Position numbers and translations under genes: made by a program. A DNA stretch of 28,994 nt from positions 1 to 28,994 of the IMG/VR virus record IMGVR_UViG_3300028025_006239, one strand, 5' to 3'. This document shows positions 14,389 to 25,905 of this stretch, one piece after another. Below the pieces are notes generated by a model. That model searched no databases. It was not told the origin of the DNA and was given only the letters and a program-made list of their open reading frames with translations. The DNA is from a virus. Position 1 is the stretch's first letter. Each line of letters opens with the position of its first letter.

Positions 14389-17300
14389 ATGGCAGTTCTA
14401 AGGGTATACATCCAACCCCGGCTTCCTGGGGCAACAGACCAAGGCGCCTTCTATGACTTCAGCAACCACGTGCAGTTTGACACGATGGAGTGGGAGCAGA
14501 ACGACCAAGGGCAGTCTTCCACCCTTCGCGCTGATATCTACACCATCCTCCCTTCGGCAACTACGAACTGGAATTCCTATGCTGGCGCAACTGAGAACCT
14601 ACGGATTGCTGCAGCACTTCAGGACCCAAACTATCGCCTGAAGATTGCTCCCCGTACGGAGATTCAACTCCGAGATGTCTCCGTCAGCCCGCACGTCATC
14701 CTCTGGGGCGGCGTAGTTACGCGCGTCTCCGAGCAGCGAGATGGCGGGGCAATCACCGGCAGTATTGACGCGGTTGACTACACGGAACTGTTGCGCGAGT
14801 CAGTATCCCTGCAGTACACCCCACTTGCCGAATCAACCATCAAGCAGGTATTGACCAGCCAGACATACTCGTTTACACCTTCTCTTGCCGAGCGGACTGA
14901 CGGTATTGCCAAAATCACCGTAAGCAGTATTGCTATCGGGTCTCCGTACAACCGAAACCTGCAAATTGGCGACACCATCGTGGTTAACCTTAGCGACGAC
15001 ACATACGACGGTCCGTTCCACAAGATCATTGCCGTTACAGGGTCTGGCCCGTACCAGTTGACATACCAGCAATATTCAAATGTCGCAGACAGCGTTAGCA
15101 CCGCCGTGACGGGAACCGTCAAGGTGCCGGGCTTCCTGACTACTGATAACGCGAGTGGCTTGGACTCCCGGTTCCGCATCCTTGACGCAAACGTCTATGA
15201 CCTAAACACTCCGTATAAGTGGAGCCCAAAGACTCCAAACGTGAACCGCGTAGTCTCGTTTGCGACTCGAGCGGGCGACATTGCAAGCATTACCCTTTCG
15301 TCTGAGCACAGCTTCTCTGTTGGTCACCCATTCACCATTACGCTCACCAACGGCCCCACTGGCTATGCCGCCCTAAACGGTTCATACGTCATTGCCACCG
15401 TTCCATCATCTCGGACATTTACCTATGTCACCGCTACCTCTGGGACAATCACCTACGGAGCTGCAACTGGAACCGTCAGCGCAGATGGAACCATTACCCC
15501 TACGCCGATCAGCGGTGGGGATATGCGGTCAAACCTTGAGACCGTTATTAAGCCGGGAATCGGCGTGGCATACGCTAACGCGGGCACCCTAGATGGCGGC
15601 GGGAACCTGACGATTGACATCTTTGTCAAGCCGAAGAACCAGATTGACCTAGTTACTAACGGACTATTTGAGGGCGGATCTTCAACTGGCTGGACTCCTG
15701 GGAGTTATACCATCAGTTCCAGCGGAACAACCGGACCGTACGATGTTGGCGACTCTGCTTATTACATCGGCAGCGACCACCAAGACATGGAGATGGCGTC
15801 TGGCTCCCGCATTCCGGTATCTAGCGGCGAGCAGTATTTCTGGTCGTGGCGCCAGAAGGCAAGCCAGCCAAATAAGGCGCATCCTCATATCAAGTTCTAC
15901 AACGGCGCAGGGTCTGTCGTTGGAAATGCTCACGGCTACGACATCTGCAAGACCGACGTAACTGCAAACCAATGGGAGCGAAACTACGGGATCGTTATTG
16001 TCCCAGCAACGGCAGCAACCATGACATTTGTGCTGCACCACGAGTCCTTCTCCTCAAGCCATAGTGTGTATTACACCGACATTCAGGCCACCAAGATTAC
16101 TGGCGACTTTGGTTTTAGCGATAAAGTAATTACCGACCTTGCCTATTGGAACAACGTCACTGTTTCTGGGCTTGACCTTCGTGACTTTGAGAATCCAACT
16201 GCTCCAGAAGAGAGTGGAGAGGCTGCAAACAGAATCTATCTCTATGCGCCATACACGGACGTGGACCCTCTTACTGGCGCGAAGAAGGTAACAACGTACC
16301 GAAATACCTACGACTTCGTGCAGGGGGTTTGGGAGAATGGTGGCAAGCGCATTGAGTCTTCTATCGTCTCAAACGATGCGCTTGATTCAAACCTTGCTCT
16401 TCAGACGGCACGAAACTACTTTAAAGAAAAGGGTCAGGCGCTCAAGTCCTTTGACTTTGAACATATCTCTGGTCCCCTTAGCGTCGGTGACGTTGTTCCA
16501 TTTGTTTGGAATGAACTCAAGGTAGCCGAGGCGCTTATCGTCCGAAAGCAGGTCGGATACCTAGTCGGTCAGGAAATCTATTACCGGGTCCAGCTTGGTG
16601 GAGACCTTGCCTTCCAGCGGAGCACGCTTTATCTCGTTGAGCAGCGCCTAAAGGATATTACGGGTGACTCTTCGTACTTTGCCCCAAAGCCGAGCCCATA
16701 TGCAGGCCAGCCAACTGCTGGCGGAATCGTCACGCCAGCCATCCCAGAGGTCAGCGCTGGCAGCAAGCAAATCGCTGTCTCTTGGGACTATCCAACGAGC
16801 CTCATCAACTCTGTGGCATTTGGCGGATTCCTTGTTCTCAGGACTGAACTAAGCCTTGTTGGCACAGCAACAACCGCAGCAGGCGGAACTGGGTCGGTTG
16901 CTACGATCACCACATCATCTAACCATGGCTTGCTTGCCGGAGATGAAGTGGTCATCCAGAACCTTGTCCCAGACGGATACAACGGGTCATTTACGATTGT
17001 AAGCGTTCCTGCCGCGAATTCATTCACCTATGCAAACCAGACCACTGGCGCACAGACTGGCGCTGGTTCTATTTACAAGATCGGAACTTGGTATAAGGCA
17101 AGCACGAGCGAGCCCATTGCTGGCGCCGTTCAGCCAACCGCCCCAGACGTAGCGACTGCCTCCTACACCGATAACGACCTTGTTCCGGGAACGTTCTACG
17201 CCTACAAACTCGCCGCCATTGACGTCTCAACCTCTGACCCAATCATCACTGGCTACTCAAGTACCAGCACTGCCGTAAGCCCAGAAGACGTGAACGTCAG

Positions 17301-18102
17301 CTTTGACAACGCCTATAGCGGACTCGGCATCAACGTTCCGAAGGTTATCTACACCGTCACGGAAAACACCAGTTCGTTCTACATCACCAGCGGCGGAAGC
17401 GAGACATTCCTTCCGAACGCGCAGTACCCAATCGGTCAGATGGTCTACACGGAAGCCCTTGGGAAACTGTTTAAGTCATCGGAGTTCCAAGACAATCTAG
17501 GCACGACAATTCAGGGCTGGGTGCGAGCCGCCATTGATCGAGTAGACGTCGGCCCAGATGGAGAGGTCAGCATCTCTGCCGACCGAATCAATGTTGGAGA
17601 ACTTGACGCCGCGCTAGTAAACGTCACAAACCTCAACGCTGGAAACATCAAGGCTGGTGACATTGAGTTCACCGCAGACGTAGATAACGGCCTTTCCCAG
17701 ATGACCTTTTACAATGGAGCAGACTCAAATAAAAAGAATGCCGTCTGGGACGTAAACGGGCTAACGCTTAATGACCCAGACACTTATAACACTGGGACAG
17801 GCGTAGCATCTAAGCGCGTTGAGATCATCAATGGTCAGATCAGACTTATCTCTGGGGATGCGACTACTGCAGCCCTTGACGGAGACGGGATCAACGCCTC
17901 TGCCATCACCATTGGCGCAATGCCCGGTGGTGCCAACCTTATCCCAAACTCATCCTTTGAGCTGTCTGACTTCTCCGTTGTTCAGGCGGCCACAAAGAGC
18001 ACAACAGCCGAGCTTGCGGCATGGGTAACTATCTCAACAATCTCCCCAGAGAACGTTAGCGCTACGAACAACCAGTTTGAACTAACCTCATTCGGGTACT
18101 GA
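14389..18102 (+). CDS. Tail hub / tail-associated protein with carbohydrate-binding and FN3 domains
   Basis: 1237 residues, start after GGGGGAGG and adjacent to the tape measure stop. Residues 1-160 resemble a hub barrel (VYIQPRLPG, FSNHVQFDTMEW, ILWGGVVTRVSEQRDGGAITG, VDYTELLRES). Hub-like sequence continues to about 425 with two inserted FTY modules (173-246 and 298-364). About 425-575 looks like a CBM4/9-type carbohydrate-binding sandwich (LFEGGSSTGW, AYYIGSDHQDMEM, YFWSWRQKAS, VYYTDIQAT). Hub strands resume (LRDFENPTAPEESGEAANRIYLYA). FN3-like sequence from about 790 contains a third FTY module (837-897). The C-terminus (1080-1180) has stalk-like repeats, and 1180-1237 reads like the first third of another carbohydrate-binding domain (NLIPNSSFELSDF) that stops early. 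It probably sits at the tail tip and contacts host glycans. Confidence 0.8.
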   Translation: MAVLRVYIQPRLPGATDQGAFYDFSNHVQFDTMEWEQNDQGQSSTLRADIYTILPSATTNWNSYAGATENLRIAAALQDPNYRLKIAPRTEIQLRDVSVSPHVILWGGVVTRVSEQRDGGAITGSIDAVDYTELLRESVSLQYTPLAESTIKQVLTSQTYSFTPSLAERTDGIAKITVSSIAIGSPYNRNLQIGDTIVVNLSDDTYDGPFHKIIAVTGSGPYQLTYQQYSNVADSVSTAVTGTVKVPGFLTTDNASGLDSRFRILDANVYDLNTPYKWSPKTPNVNRVVSFATRAGDIASITLSSEHSFSVGHPFTITLTNGPTGYAALNGSYVIATVPSSRTFTYVTATSGTITYGAATGTVSADGTITPTPISGGDMRSNLETVIKPGIGVAYANAGTLDGGGNLTIDIFVKPKNQIDLVTNGLFEGGSSTGWTPGSYTISSSGTTGPYDVGDSAYYIGSDHQDMEMASGSRIPVSSGEQYFWSWRQKASQPNKAHPHIKFYNGAGSVVGNAHGYDICKTDVTANQWERNYGIVIVPATAATMTFVLHHESFSSSHSVYYTDIQATKITGDFGFSDKVITDLAYWNNVTVSGLDLRDFENPTAPEESGEAANRIYLYAPYTDVDPLTGAKKVTTYRNTYDFVQGVWENGGKRIESSIVSNDALDSNLALQTARNYFKEKGQALKSFDFEHISGPLSVGDVVPFVWNELKVAEALIVRKQVGYLVGQEIYYRVQLGGDLAFQRSTLYLVEQRLKDITGDSSYFAPKPSPYAGQPTAGGIVTPAIPEVSAGSKQIAVSWDYPTSLINSVAFGGFLVLRTELSLVGTATTAAGGTGSVATITTSSNHGLLAGDEVVIQNLVPDGYNGSFTIVSVPAANSFTYANQTTGAQTGAGSIYKIGTWYKASTSEPIAGAVQPTAPDVATASYTDNDLVPGTFYAYKLAAIDVSTSDPIITGYSSTSTAVSPEDVNVSFDNAYSGLGINVPKVIYTVTENTSSFYITSGGSETFLPNAQYPIGQMVYTEALGKLFKSSEFQDNLGTTIQGWVRAAIDRVDVGPDGEVSISADRINVGELDAALVNVTNLNAGNIKAGDIEFTADVDNGLSQMTFYNGADSNKKNAVWDVNGLTLNDPDTYNTGTGVASKRVEIINGQIRLISGDATTAALDGDGINASAITIGAMPGGANLIPNSSFELSDFSVVQAATKSTTAELAAWVTISTISPENVSATNNQFELTSFGY
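14905..15126 (+). repeat. FTY beta module, copy A (divergent)
   Basis: Residues 173-246 of the hub protein. Pattern: IAKITVSS, a polar turn, LQIGDTIVVNL, DGPFHKIIAV, PYQLTYQQY, ending TGTVKV. It is the most divergent copy but keeps the GD-x-[IV]-V-[VIL] strand, the polar-G-x-[FY] turn and the final small-residue strand. Confidence 0.5.
15280..15480 (+). repeat. FTY beta module, copy B
   Basis: Residues 298-364 of the hub protein: IASITLSSEHSFSVGHPFTI, LTNGPTGYAALNGSYVIATV, RTFTYVTATSGTITYGAATG. It matches copy D closely (NGPTGYAALNGSY against SGPTNFAQLNGLY, and SGTIT shared). Confidence 0.75.
16897..17079 (+). repeat. FTY beta module, copy C, within an FN3 domain
   Basis: Residues 837-897 of the hub protein: VATITTSSNHGLLAGDEVVI, DGYNGSFTIVSVPAANSFTY, ending GAGSIYK. 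FN3-like sequence lies on both sides (FLVLRTELS before, WYKASTSEPI and YTDNDLVPGTFYAYKLAA after), so the module seems inserted in an FN3 loop. Confidence 0.7.
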
Positions 18103-18105
18103 TAA

Positions 18106-20973
18106 ATGGCAACAAAAACCTTTCTAACCTCTAAGGACGCAGTCGTTGTTCTGCGGAACAGTGATAGCGGCAGTCTTGGCGCTGGTAAGGATTACCACAT
18201 CTACGTTGGAAACAGCGGAGACTACACGATTCGTGGACTTGTTCAGTTCAACCTTGACTTCAGCGACGTTACCTCAATCACAAGCGCAACTCTGTACTTC
18301 ACCACCGCCAGATCAAATGACGGAACCGTTGATGGATACCTGCGGGATACGCACGGTACGTATTCCTCGGCGGCAATGCACATCAGCCGAGTTACTTCTG
18401 CCTGGACCGAAGGTACCTACGGTAACGATGAAGCCTTTAACGGCTCTAACTCCGTTGAATGGAGCAACCAGCCATCTACCACAACCGAAGACCGTGTCTC
18501 GTTCACTTCTCGATCATCTCGTCCGTCTTCGCCCACGCTGGACTCAATGGATATTACTGGGATTGTCACCGACTGGTTCAATGGCTCAGCAAACTACGGT
18601 ATTCAGGTTAAGTTCCAAAGCGAAGTTGGATCACGATTCACCGAGTGGTACAGCCGAGAGGGGGACGCAAGTTCAATCTCTGGGGCTGTGGCGCCATACA
18701 TCGTCCTTACTTACTCAACAGTTACTAATCCAACTGGTACGCCAACAAGCCCAAGCGGCACAGTTGCAAAGGTCACTAACCTTTCCGATCTAACTGAGTG
18801 GACAAGCACTAGCCAGCACGCCATGCCGGAGTTTAATTGGTCCTATACGACTGGCGGTGGCGGCGTCCAGACAAAGTGGCGTCTGCGCATCTACAACAAC
18901 AATAGCAAGACAACGACATTCTATGACTCTGGAATTGTGCTTGATGCCTCACACGCTGCTGATTTGACATTTTCTCCAGTAAAGAATGCGGACAAGCAAG
19001 CTTGGGTTCCTGGGGCTGGCTGGTCAACGATTACAGGTCTTGTGAACGGCACCGAGTATTTCTGGACGATTCAGGTCTACGACGCCCTGGGAAATGTTTC
19101 TACAGAGTCTACGCCTGTAGGATTTAAGGTTCGCTGGGGACAGGCAGTCTACGAGTGGGACGCGGGTGTCGGCTACGCCGCAACAGGCTCATGGTCAATT
19201 GCGCATGCTCAGCCGCCAGCAAACACCCAAGCGGTTGTCCAATATCGAGTAGCAGCGTCTTCTGGCGCGACAACTGGGGCTTGGTCATCCGAGATTGGGC
19301 CGCTTATCGCCACGCAGCGCTACCTTCAGACGCTCGTGCGAGTGTCCACAGACGTTGGCGGAACAAAGCCGTACATTACTGATATCACCTTCTCCTATGT
19401 CAGCAGCGCTGTACCACCAGACAACTGGTATGTTACTAGCGGATCATTGATTCTTGACGATACCGAGCGTCGCTTCGGAACAAAGTCCGCCCTTTGGAAA
19501 CCTTCTACCACTGGCGCTTCTTCTGTTCAGCCGCTCAGAAACACTGGTGAGTACGATATTCCCGTTCTGCACAATACTCGATACACGTTCTCAGCGTATG
19601 TAAAGCCGGTATCCATTGCCGGACGAACGCTCAAGCTTCGCGTGTACAAGTCAAGTGGTCTTACTTCTTCAATTACTGGGTCAGAGATTGCCGACATTAA
19701 CGGTGTTACCTCATCCCAAAACTACTCACTATTCCCAGAGGACAACGAAGGATGGTATCGCCTTACCTACACCTTTGAGACGGACTCCAGCACAGACTTT
19801 GTGAAGCCGCTTATTTACCTGTTTGGAACTGGCCTTGCAACTGACTCCGTTTACCTAGACGGCGTGCAGTTTGAAGAGGGAACGGTTGTGCGCTCGTGGA
19901 CCCCAGGCTTTGTAACCCAGGCGATGACCTTTGAGGGCGCTGGGCTATCCATTGACGGCAGTCGTGGGGGGTCGCTGCGTTTGCGTGGATCTGGCGGTGG
20001 CGAAAGAGATATTGTTGAGCTTGGTGCAGACGGACTATCGTTCGGTGGAACAACAAGCCCAGCAAACCTTTACTCTCCCGGAGCAGATGTTCTTGCCTCT
20101 GACCAGCAGATCCGATCCTACTTCTCTCCGGCATTTAGGGCAGAAACTGGAACCTCAACAGGAACTGCGCTTAGGACTTTGACCACAGGGGACACTGATG
20201 CAAGGTTCAACATTAGAACAGACGGCGTCTTGGATTGGGGAACCGGTGCGGCGGCGGCTGACACCAACCTATACCGAAGTGAAGCCAGCGTCCTTAAAAC
20301 TGACGATTCTCTGTGGGTTGCCGGGAACACCCTCAGCTCAGTTGATAGGAGTGGCTCAGCAGACAGCACTACCATTACATATAACACAGAGTATTATGCG
20401 CTCACAAACGCAGAAACCTCTTTTACCCCAACGTTTGTTGGTCAAAGATGGCTCTTGACGCTAACTGGGTACGTATCTTTGAATACCACAACTATCCAAT
20501 ATGCTTTTGTTCGCGGTGCGGTTCATAACTCGGCGGTTGCTGTTTCTACCGCAGCAAGATCTAGCACAACCGCGACAATCAACACCTCAACCGCACACGG
20601 AATGGTTGCTGGAGATACGTTTGTCATTGCCCTCACAAGCGGGCCGACAAACTTTGCGCAACTGAACGGTCTGTATACGGTTGCAACTGCCCCGACAACT
20701 ACCTCATTCACGTACGTTGCACCATCAAGCGGGACAATCACCTCTGGGGCGGCGGTTGGAAGTGTTTATAAGCAACTGGCAAACATGGGGTTCAGCAGGG
20801 CGGACAACTACGGCACCACCGGCAGGGGCGGGACCGTTGCGCTTACAAGGGTATATACAGCAACTACTGCTGGGGTTCCGCTAGTGTTTAAGTTTACGGG
20901 CACAACGCAAACAACCGCTGGCCTAACGCTTTCACTCGCATATACCCAAATCAATGCATACCCATTGGGATAA
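18106..20973 (+). CDS. Multidomain tail adhesin (DNRLRE, FN3-like, CBM-like, fibre-type C-terminus)
   Basis: 955 residues, three bases after the hub stop. Residues 1-205 resemble a DNRLRE-type beta sandwich (KDAVVVLRNSDSG, RGLVQFNLDFSDV, SATLYFTTARSND, ISRVTSAWTEGTYG, VTDWFNGSANYGIQVK), a fold used for carbohydrate or matrix binding. About 210-345 is FN3-like (GTEYFWTIQVYDALGNVS), and 440-600 is CBM4/9-like (FGTKSALWKPS, YTFSAYVKPV, GWYRLTYTFETDSS, DSVYLDGVQFEEG). A short stalk (SLRLRG) and a fibre repeat at 698-739 (RTDGVLDWGTG, DTNLYRS) lead to a C-terminal beta domain (755-955) into which the fourth FTY module is inserted. Likely a receptor- or polysaccharide-binding tail-tip fibre; no enzyme active site was recognised. 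Confidence 0.75.
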   Translation: MATKTFLTSKDAVVVLRNSDSGSLGAGKDYHIYVGNSGDYTIRGLVQFNLDFSDVTSITSATLYFTTARSNDGTVDGYLRDTHGTYSSAAMHISRVTSAWTEGTYGNDEAFNGSNSVEWSNQPSTTTEDRVSFTSRSSRPSSPTLDSMDITGIVTDWFNGSANYGIQVKFQSEVGSRFTEWYSREGDASSISGAVAPYIVLTYSTVTNPTGTPTSPSGTVAKVTNLSDLTEWTSTSQHAMPEFNWSYTTGGGGVQTKWRLRIYNNNSKTTTFYDSGIVLDASHAADLTFSPVKNADKQAWVPGAGWSTITGLVNGTEYFWTIQVYDALGNVSTESTPVGFKVRWGQAVYEWDAGVGYAATGSWSIAHAQPPANTQAVVQYRVAASSGATTGAWSSEIGPLIATQRYLQTLVRVSTDVGGTKPYITDITFSYVSSAVPPDNWYVTSGSLILDDTERRFGTKSALWKPSTTGASSVQPLRNTGEYDIPVLHNTRYTFSAYVKPVSIAGRTLKLRVYKSSGLTSSITGSEIADINGVTSSQNYSLFPEDNEGWYRLTYTFETDSSTDFVKPLIYLFGTGLATDSVYLDGVQFEEGTVVRSWTPGFVTQAMTFEGAGLSIDGSRGGSLRLRGSGGGERDIVELGADGLSFGGTTSPANLYSPGADVLASDQQIRSYFSPAFRAETGTSTGTALRTLTTGDTDARFNIRTDGVLDWGTGAAAADTNLYRSEASVLKTDDSLWVAGNTLSSVDRSGSADSTTITYNTEYYALTNAETSFTPTFVGQRWLLTLTGYVSLNTTTIQYAFVRGAVHNSAVAVSTAARSSTTATINTSTAHGMVAGDTFVIALTSGPTNFAQLNGLYTVATAPTTTSFTYVAPSSGTITSGAAVGSVYKQLANMGFSRADNYGTTGRGGTVALTRVYTATTAGVPLVFKFTGTTQTTAGLTLSLAYTQINAYPLG
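20569..20772 (+). repeat. FTY beta module, copy D, within the adhesin C-terminal domain
   Basis: Residues 822-889 of the adhesin: TATINTSTAHGMVAGDTFVI, SGPTNFAQLNGLYTVATAP, TSFTYVAPSSGTITSGAAVG, ending SVYK. The surrounding beta domain (YAFVRGAVHNSAV before, ANMGFSRADNYGTTGRGG after) reads as one fold interrupted by the module. Confidence 0.72.
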
Positions 20974-24645: not shown

Positions 24646-25905
24646 TCAAGTCTTAATAATGAAGTTGAGCAACGTAGACTTAGGTGCAATTGTTCCGTTT
24701 GCACTCATAGCCGAAGAGGTAACTGATGTCGCCCCAAGAGACGTTACGCCACCAGTGACGGTGTGGGTAAGGTTGGTGCTTTCTGCGCCAGATGTTGTTG
24801 CGGCAATGTTGGTGGAGTGCGTATGAACAGAGTTTGGTACTGATACGTTTGATCCAGATCCTCCATATGAAAGTAGTACGGTCGTGCTCGGACCGCCAGA
24901 AGTTGTAGCCGCTGGGTCAACGCTGTGCGTATGGTCGCCGTGCGTGGAAACGGCAATGGTGTCCGCGTGTCCGTGGGCGATATCTGCGGTATGTGTGTGC
25001 GCAATGCTGTTTGCCGCATTCGGGCCAAATGTTCCAGAACTATTTGCCCAACCAAGGGCCGTGTCCGACCTACCAGCCGCAAACCTGTCGCGCATATCTG
25101 GAAGTGCAAATGTTCCAGATCCCACACCAAATACTGCTGCAAGTGCTGGGTATGTTGCTTGGCTGATTGTTGATCCATCAAGAAACAGCCATCCCGATGG
25201 TGCCGTACCAGTCATCCACATAACAACGGAGCCAGTCGGTGGAATTTGACTCGTTAGTGCAACTGTTCCAGTAAGATCTGGCAGGCTAATTGTGTTGTCG
25301 GCAGTCGGATCTATAACAGTAAGGTCGGTCTCAAATCCGTCGTCAGTTGTTCCCTCAAAAACAATTTTCTTTCCTGCTGGGAGATATAGGCCAGAAGAGG
25401 TAACTGATGCGGCGACTGCTCCGCTAGCACTAAAGTCCAACTGCCCTGGATTAATAATGTCTCCGCCGACAGTAAGGCTCTGTCCAACGTCAAAATTATC
25501 GTCAGTTGCTAAGGTATTTGCTGCGGACCTATACAGGTTGGTGTCTCTGGAGGCTGTCCCATCTCCCCATGCTTGGAACCCATCTGCACGAACACCCCAT
25601 CTGGTATTGGCCTCACCATCAACTCTGGTGGTTACTTGAGTGTTTGATGTTGACGTTGCGCCAAATACAGCAAGCGAACCAGTGTTGGAAATAGTAAGCG
25701 TTCCAGTAAGTGTGTCACCAGAGTCTGCAAGGTATTGTCCGTGGCTGTGTGTTGATAGGCTTACGTCAACCCCCTCAACCGCAAGCGTTCCCGCAGCAGA
25801 TCTAGAAAGCGTAGTGTCAGTTGCGTGGCCAAGTTCAATCGTGCCGCCAACCGTAAGGTCGTCGGTTGAAGTTGAGAGGCTTACGTCGGAAAGAATCTTT
25901 ACCAT
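24646..25905 (-). CDS. Tail fibre with phage tail-collar domain and HxH-rich tip
   Basis: 419 residues. A fibre stalk (1-100) contains THSHGQYL and leads to a repeat at 101-140 (RADGFQAWGDG, DTNLYRS). A typical tail-collar domain spans 222-280 (PPTGSVVMWMTG, GWLFLDG, ALPDMRDRFAAGRSD). After it comes a tip with HTH (303-305), HGH (311-313), HTH (325-327) and HTH (361-363) motifs, then the usual ending (APKSTLLNFIIKT). In related fibres and spikes HxH pairs bind iron along the trimer axis, and the tip recognises the receptor. There is no ribosome site; TAAAAT lies exactly six bases before ATG, and the upstream fibre stop lies inside this hexamer. It is probably both read through from upstream and started independently. 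Confidence 0.86.
   Translation of the reverse strand: MVKILSDVSLSTSTDDLTVGGTIELGHATDTTLSRSAAGTLAVEGVDVSLSTHSHGQYLADSGDTLTGTLTISNTGSLAVFGATSTSNTQVTTRVDGEANTRWGVRADGFQAWGDGTASRDTNLYRSAANTLATDDNFDVGQSLTVGGDIINPGQLDFSASGAVAASVTSSGLYLPAGKKIVFEGTTDDGFETDLTVIDPTADNTISLPDLTGTVALTSQIPPTGSVVMWMTGTAPSGWLFLDGSTISQATYPALAAVFGVGSGTFALPDMRDRFAAGRSDTALGWANSSGTFGPNAANSIAHTHTADIAHGHADTIAVSTHGDHTHSVDPAATTSGGPSTTVLLSYGGSGSNVSVPNSVHTHSTNIAATTSGAESTNLTHTVTGGVTSLGATSVTSSAMSANGTIAPKSTLLNFIIKT

Follow-up and report, generated by a model that had tools for sequence, protein, structure and literature searches.

The window analyzed here, a virus record of 28,994 bases, encodes an SU10-like major capsid protein. Downstream of the tape measure protein lie two adjacent tail genes, a hub and an adhesin, which host four copies of a small predicted β-barrel module that we call A, B, C, and D (Table 1). 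Neither full protein had a close match by tblastn among 50,697 isolated phage records, and the same search of isolated phages with module D and with its joined flanks returned nothing. Relatives of the hub and adhesin were found in IMG/VR only: two near-identical contigs (L001 and L002) at 84%, with other hubs and adhesins more distant. In L008, L010, and L089, two or three overlapping ORFs make up the hub reading frame, a split that may be an assembly error or a programmed frameshift. On the opposite strand, positions 24646–25905 of the window encode a phage Tail Collar domain protein (PF07484, E 4.7e-17).

Table 1. Tail genes, modules, and adhesin tip of the window
Feature	Position	Strand	Evidence and distribution
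Tail hub protein gene, 1237 aa, hosts modules A, B, and C	14389..18102	+	ORF; orthologues L001, L006, L007, L008, L010, L011, L040, L089
Module A, probable divergent FCCH-like barrel, hub aa 164–249	14878..15135	+	20.7 / 10.9 bits; in 9/9 hubs seen
Module B, predicted FCCH-like barrel, hub aa 289–368	15253..15492	+	62.8 bits; in 9/9 hubs seen
Module C, predicted FCCH-like barrel, hub aa 828–903	16870..17097	+	65.9 bits; PF12195 E 6.8e-6; AlphaFold2 model; VIA Z 11.3 to UBA6 FCCH; absent in five orthologues
Tail adhesin gene, 955 aa, hosts module D	18106..20973	+	ORF; orthologues L001, L006, L014, L015, L017
Adhesin tip cassette, aa 736–955: sandwich domain, one loop of which holds module D	20311..20970	+	90–94% identical to L017
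Module D, predicted FCCH-like barrel, adhesin aa 813–892	20542..20781	+	72.8 bits; absent in L041, L042

We built a profile HMM of 76 positions, seeded with the four segments and their L001 orthologues and iterated over the ORFs of the fetched loci. It detected 136 module copies in 80 ORFs and, in the window, exactly the four segments in two adjacent genes that an earlier note had described as related. With a model from which the whole hub/adhesin family was left out, B, C, and D scored 62.8–72.8 bits (E 1e-18 to 1e-21), where the best of 1000 shuffles per protein reached 8.1 bits. Judged by sequence, these three are certain members of one family. Module A scored 10.9 bits (E 0.055) with that model and 20.7 bits when only A copies were left out; it has a 7-residue insertion and none of the His, NG, or FTY features. 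We are fairly confident that it is a true, divergent member. The relatedness claimed in the earlier note therefore stands firmly for three copies and less so for A. Its printed motif fits B and C only, as D has IN for IT and H, NG, and FTY are all missing from A.

Related modules are not confined to hubs and adhesins; they are present too in head, tube, sheath, and baseplate-wedge proteins. A tblastn search with module C matched 242 isolated phage records, chiefly cyanophages, and matches in BFVD were mostly uncultured phage proteins, with annotations including baseplate, sheath, fibronectin, and endosialidase. Scanning bacterial genomes with a B/D-type module gave one match, in a MAG. Many overlapping partial module matches fill the C-terminal half of one further ORF (L058:1625–4288, aa 421–888), possibly a degenerate tandem array.

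Next, we considered the fold. Alignments that mixed empty-site orthologues with modules were misaligned and were replaced by alignments of the N-terminal halves only. An AlphaFold2 model of hub aa 1–975 from 8 sequences had a mean pLDDT of 45 and was set aside as too poor. A model of hub residues 690–986, from an input of 44 sequences, shows module C as a self-contained six-stranded barrel at pLDDT 84–96, with the halves of the host domain on either side at pLDDT 30–60. Structure prediction, a check proposed in the earlier note, hence bears out the separate barrel and leaves the host halves around it poorly modeled. Using VIA-align, residues 131–210 of the model superposed best on the FCCH domains of the ubiquitin E1 enzymes UBA6 and UBA1 (PF16190), with Z scores of 10–11.3 and an rmsd of 1.8–2.4 Å over 75–78 residues. 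The β-barrels of phage endosialidases (PF12195) showed the same fold over 76–79 residues at 20–24% identity, with a Z score of 10.2 for phi92 (PDB 4hiz) and 8.3–8.8 for K1F EndoNF (PDB 1v0e/3gvj). Foldseek returned UBA1 and endosialidase NF as the best matches of the module C model, and a PDB search with the module profile ranked endosialidases at the top, with UBA1 as a weaker match. In Pfam, 7 of 42 modules matched PF12195 (End_beta_barrel), the best being C at 26.4 bits (E 6.8e-6) under a gathering cut-off of 35 bits. Another 7/42 count was obtained for PF16190 (E1_FCCH; best E 4.2e-5, gathering cut-off 29.5 bits), with no such match reported among the window's own modules and 21.1 bits, below the cut-off, for the L038 protein. 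No module tested reached the gathering cut-off of either family. Taking the model and these comparisons together, the module very probably has the E1 FCCH/endosialidase β-barrel fold, with six strands and about 76 residues. The likeness to E1 FCCH domains may come from descent or from convergence. An endosialidase carries a catalytic β-propeller around its barrel; neither the hub nor the adhesin gave a propeller or sialidase match in Pfam, so these proteins are not endosialidases by that measure.

Site C is empty in five hubs (L006, L007, L008, L011, and L040), and both flanks align. At this site, the L007 hub reads GGFVVLRSGDAG and then NWVKAST, and the part of the window's hub unaligned to the empty-site orthologues spans aa 819–903 (16843–17097). 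Site D is empty in the adhesin homologues L041 and L042, which read VRADVTDTSNTQIAVLG where the window has VRGAVHNSAV, the module, and KQLANMG. The flanks of D, window versus L041/L042, are 77/55% and 74/52% identical, and the unaligned part is adhesin aa 807–892 (20524–20781). The net insertion is 75 residues at C and 77 residues at D, or one module each, and net insertions overall range over 73–85 residues, again one module. Natural orthologues with an empty site have thus retained both flanks. The earlier note had placed D inside the C-terminal sandwich of the adhesin, which agrees with the empty loop. It had also placed C inside an FN3 domain; the interruption is real, and the FN3 label has no backing from Pfam, as no fn3 match was found in the hub or in three of the empty-site orthologues of C and only a weak Ig_Rha78A_N match (E 0.11) was found in L006. 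The note had held that integral strands of larger domains, or orthologues that never lack the segments, would speak against insertion; at C and D, we found empty-site orthologues and, for C, a self-contained predicted barrel.

Presence or absence in the same loops, which the note had likewise proposed to check, was seen at nine sites in related phages besides C and D. Both flanks were aligned at eight sites: C, D, hub sites E and F, one site each in L014 and L038, and sites 1 and 2 of a ~560-aa tail protein. Three further sites are alignment-based: a tandem in the L006 adhesin, site 3 in L044, and the C-terminal module of the L006 hub. Hub site E is filled in L007, L008, and L011, and hub site F in L010, L011, and L040. 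The domain at hub aa 420–566 (15646–16086) has weak matches to the carbohydrate-binding families NTTRR-F1 and CBM_4_9; in L007, L008, and L011, module E interrupts it directly after an NGLF motif. The L014 protein carries a module where its 71%-identical relative L015 is empty, and the filled/empty site of the L038 adhesin lies within an Ig-like domain. The L006 adhesin (L006:9687–13106) has three modules in tandem at aa 428–661, with none in five relatives, and the L006 hub (L006:5977–9678) has one at its C-terminus, aa 1155–1224 (hub G). In the ~560-aa tail protein family, a module occupies the first loop in L029-type members, the second in L024-type members, and the third in L044, and each group is empty at the loops used by the others.

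Aligning the hub with the ~560-aa tail protein using hhalign matched only the modules. The module occurs in non-homologous proteins (hub, adhesin, ~560-aa tail protein, and others) and is present or absent among orthologues at the same site, which is how a mobile phage β domain is recognized. We conclude from these alignments that it has very likely been gained or lost at loops, including C, D, and the other sites, with the surrounding protein undisturbed. Modules A and B are present in 9 of 9 hub orthologues seen. When we scanned further for hubs lacking A or B, a single additional hub turned up (L089), in which both are present, and bacterial genomes gave none. A and B may be long-fixed insertions or integral parts of the hub.

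A larger exchange is visible at the end of the adhesin. The tip formed by the sandwich and module D is 90–94% identical between the window and L017, and the rest of the protein is 44–66% identical. Similarly, the L001 and L015 adhesins share an S74-chaperone-type tip at 93–100% identity on bodies that are 45–56% identical. On these identities, the adhesin tip is exchanged as one cassette, with the changeover near aa 735.

The explanation that we favor, and consider likely as a whole, is that FCCH-like barrels have been put by recombination into exposed tail loops, adding contact surface. A barrel would be inserted into exposed loops of hub and adhesin domains and leave the host flanks unaltered. 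Its ends would lie close together, so that it could plug into a β-hairpin; for module C, this closeness is taken from the E1 and endosialidase analogy because the host halves around C are poorly modeled. Either homologous or illegitimate recombination could bring a barrel in, and copying between sites of the same genome would be one such route. Once on the tail tip, the barrel may add or retune contacts with the host surface, such as glycans, or with neighboring tail subunits. That surface or glycan contact is the selected function is a proposal we would put just short of an even chance. It draws on the K1F endosialidase, which binds polysialic acid at three sites, the barrel among them, and in which mutations of the barrel loops (e.g., S460, S468, and G504) alter host discrimination, these loops tuning the range of E. 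coli K1 strains infected (PMC12632334). Two loops join the E1 FCCH domain to its host domain, and it contacts ubiquitin (PMC12355090).

The main rival is a structural role, because modules occur in head, tube, and sheath proteins and because their conserved residues look structural. Here, the barrels would be neutral or structural spacers, tolerated in loops or packed on tail-tip neighbors with no host binding, and gain and loss would reflect tolerance and not selection for contact. The conserved H, G, NG, and FTY positions all have this structural look, and no ligand residues were identifiable among them. Host contact is not required in head, tube, sheath, or baseplate-wedge proteins, the K1F barrel is mostly permissive to substitution (PMC12632334), and the tail-tube ring of YSD1 is stabilized by an inserted β-sandwich (PMC8718954). 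However, the window's copies sit in a hub and an adhesin, the adhesin tip that holds D is itself a swapped cassette, as expected of a host-contact region, and the solved endosialidase relative binds glycan. We regard the spacer role as a serious contender that nevertheless falls below an even chance.

For the history of the copies, we turned to a tree of the modules. The earlier note had named B and D as the closest copies, which holds within the window (~50% identity, versus 37–39% for C and D) and fails overall: L028-type modules are closer to D, and L029-type modules to B, than the two copies are to each other. Since each is nearer to modules in tail proteins of other phages, B and D appear to have been drawn independently from a common pool rather than copied one from the other. 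Both are placed with the modules of the ~560-aa tail protein, L014, and L038, and a single clade was not rejected (p-AU 0.53). Members of this B/D-type sub-clade are spread over about seven non-homologous loops in several tail-protein families, with identities between loops that reach 75%. The L006 adhesin modules group with the L006 hub module (support 99/98), with one long-branch L038 module included, and hub module E is sister to hub module F (support 100/99). Sister modules in one genome (L006) or one gene (E and F) point to copying within a genome or gene. Module G+C equals that of the host gene, and the module DNA pairs checked were only 65–77% identical, so no recent transfer is visible. 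Nor were there signs of an autonomous mobile element: the insert is the in-frame barrel only, and no repeat was apparent in the junction DNA read at three sites. The modules are shuffled domains and not a mobile element. The loop-inserting mobile domain envisaged in the earlier note stands for C and D, given their empty-site orthologues, in the sense of domain shuffling, and its suggestion that surface contacts are diversified is an inference.

This kinship also bears on the rival view that every one of these loops held a barrel in the ancestor, the differences being due to many losses rather than to gains. Modern copies give no direction of change at a two-state site, and the presence of A and B in every hub orthologue seen suggests that at least these two are old. 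Yet the nearest kin of a module can be at another loop of the same gene or genome (E with F, and the L006 tandem copies with hub G), B/D-type modules are as much as 75% identical across about seven non-homologous loops, and in one tail-protein family the single module occupies a different one of three loops depending on the member. Had all loops been filled at first and then emptied by repeated loss, neither the cross-loop kinship nor the alternative loops would be expected, which counts against this reading, and we consider it improbable. Least probable of all is that the segments belong to larger domains as ordinary strands, made alike by convergent Thr/Ser/Gly-rich β sequence, for although the proteins are Thr/Ser-rich and A is weak without its own family (10.9 bits), shuffled proteins reach only 8.1 bits, and the idea is refuted for C and D by the empty-site orthologues and for C also by its prediction as a separate barrel.

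Insertion of FCCH-like barrels by recombination, the explanation favored above, has parallels in several known systems. The endosialidase barrel likewise belongs to a phage tail protein, and its Pfam family is the best one for module C. It too sits inside a larger domain, there a catalytic one. Our modules differ in that they score under the Pfam cut-off, have no sialidase alongside them in the hub or adhesin and no known ligand, and are present or absent at many loops of hosts that include hub, Ig-like, carbohydrate-binding-like, and sandwich domains. The E1 FCCH domain, the highest fold match with weak sequence matches, is also an insertion on two loops and is reduced to only a loop in SUMO E1 (PMC12355090). 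Unlike that domain, the phage modules accompany no ubiquitin enzyme, and none of those tested passes the Pfam cut-off. Ig-like phage domains (Big_1, Big_2, and FN3) are, according to Fraser et al. 2006 as cited in PMC8718954, likewise small β domains that are promiscuous among unrelated structural proteins and often dispensable. They have a different fold, and the tail-tube Ig-like domains are C-terminal additions (PMC8718954), whereas the barrels are nested in loops of other domains. Finally, domain shuffling is ongoing across phages, with tail fibers and spikes as its hotspots (Smug et al. 2023, PMC10684548); that work is a statistical survey whose main text does not feature an FCCH-like module, and here we followed an individual module through resolved loops.

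Domain shuffling in phage tails, promiscuous Ig-like domains, and the barrel fold are therefore known already. In the open-access literature that we searched, we did not find the FCCH barrel linked to tail fibers or virions, and papers naming both the FCCH domain and phage concern, by title, E1 or ubiquitin enzymes. As far as that literature reaches, an FCCH-like barrel acting as a nested loop module, repeatedly gained or lost with its empty sites resolved, appears to be new. A broader and, in our estimation, unlikely proposition is that FCCH-like barrels are one homologous family of loop insertions with phage tails as the main reservoir, from which the E1 and endosialidase insertions would come as well, and that in phages they would serve as an exchangeable contact module on pre-existing tail domains.

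The fold link to E1 enzymes bears on the origin of the E1 insertion domain. The mosaic makeup of phage tail proteins hampers their annotation, and the short module signature ATxTT...H-G/S-[LF]..G[D].V..NG....F-T-Y gives a means to parse such proteins and to locate insertion-tolerant loops. Furthermore, natural filled/empty pairs (the window hub versus L040, and the window adhesin versus L042) make the effect of the module on receptor contact, host range, and tail stability directly testable.
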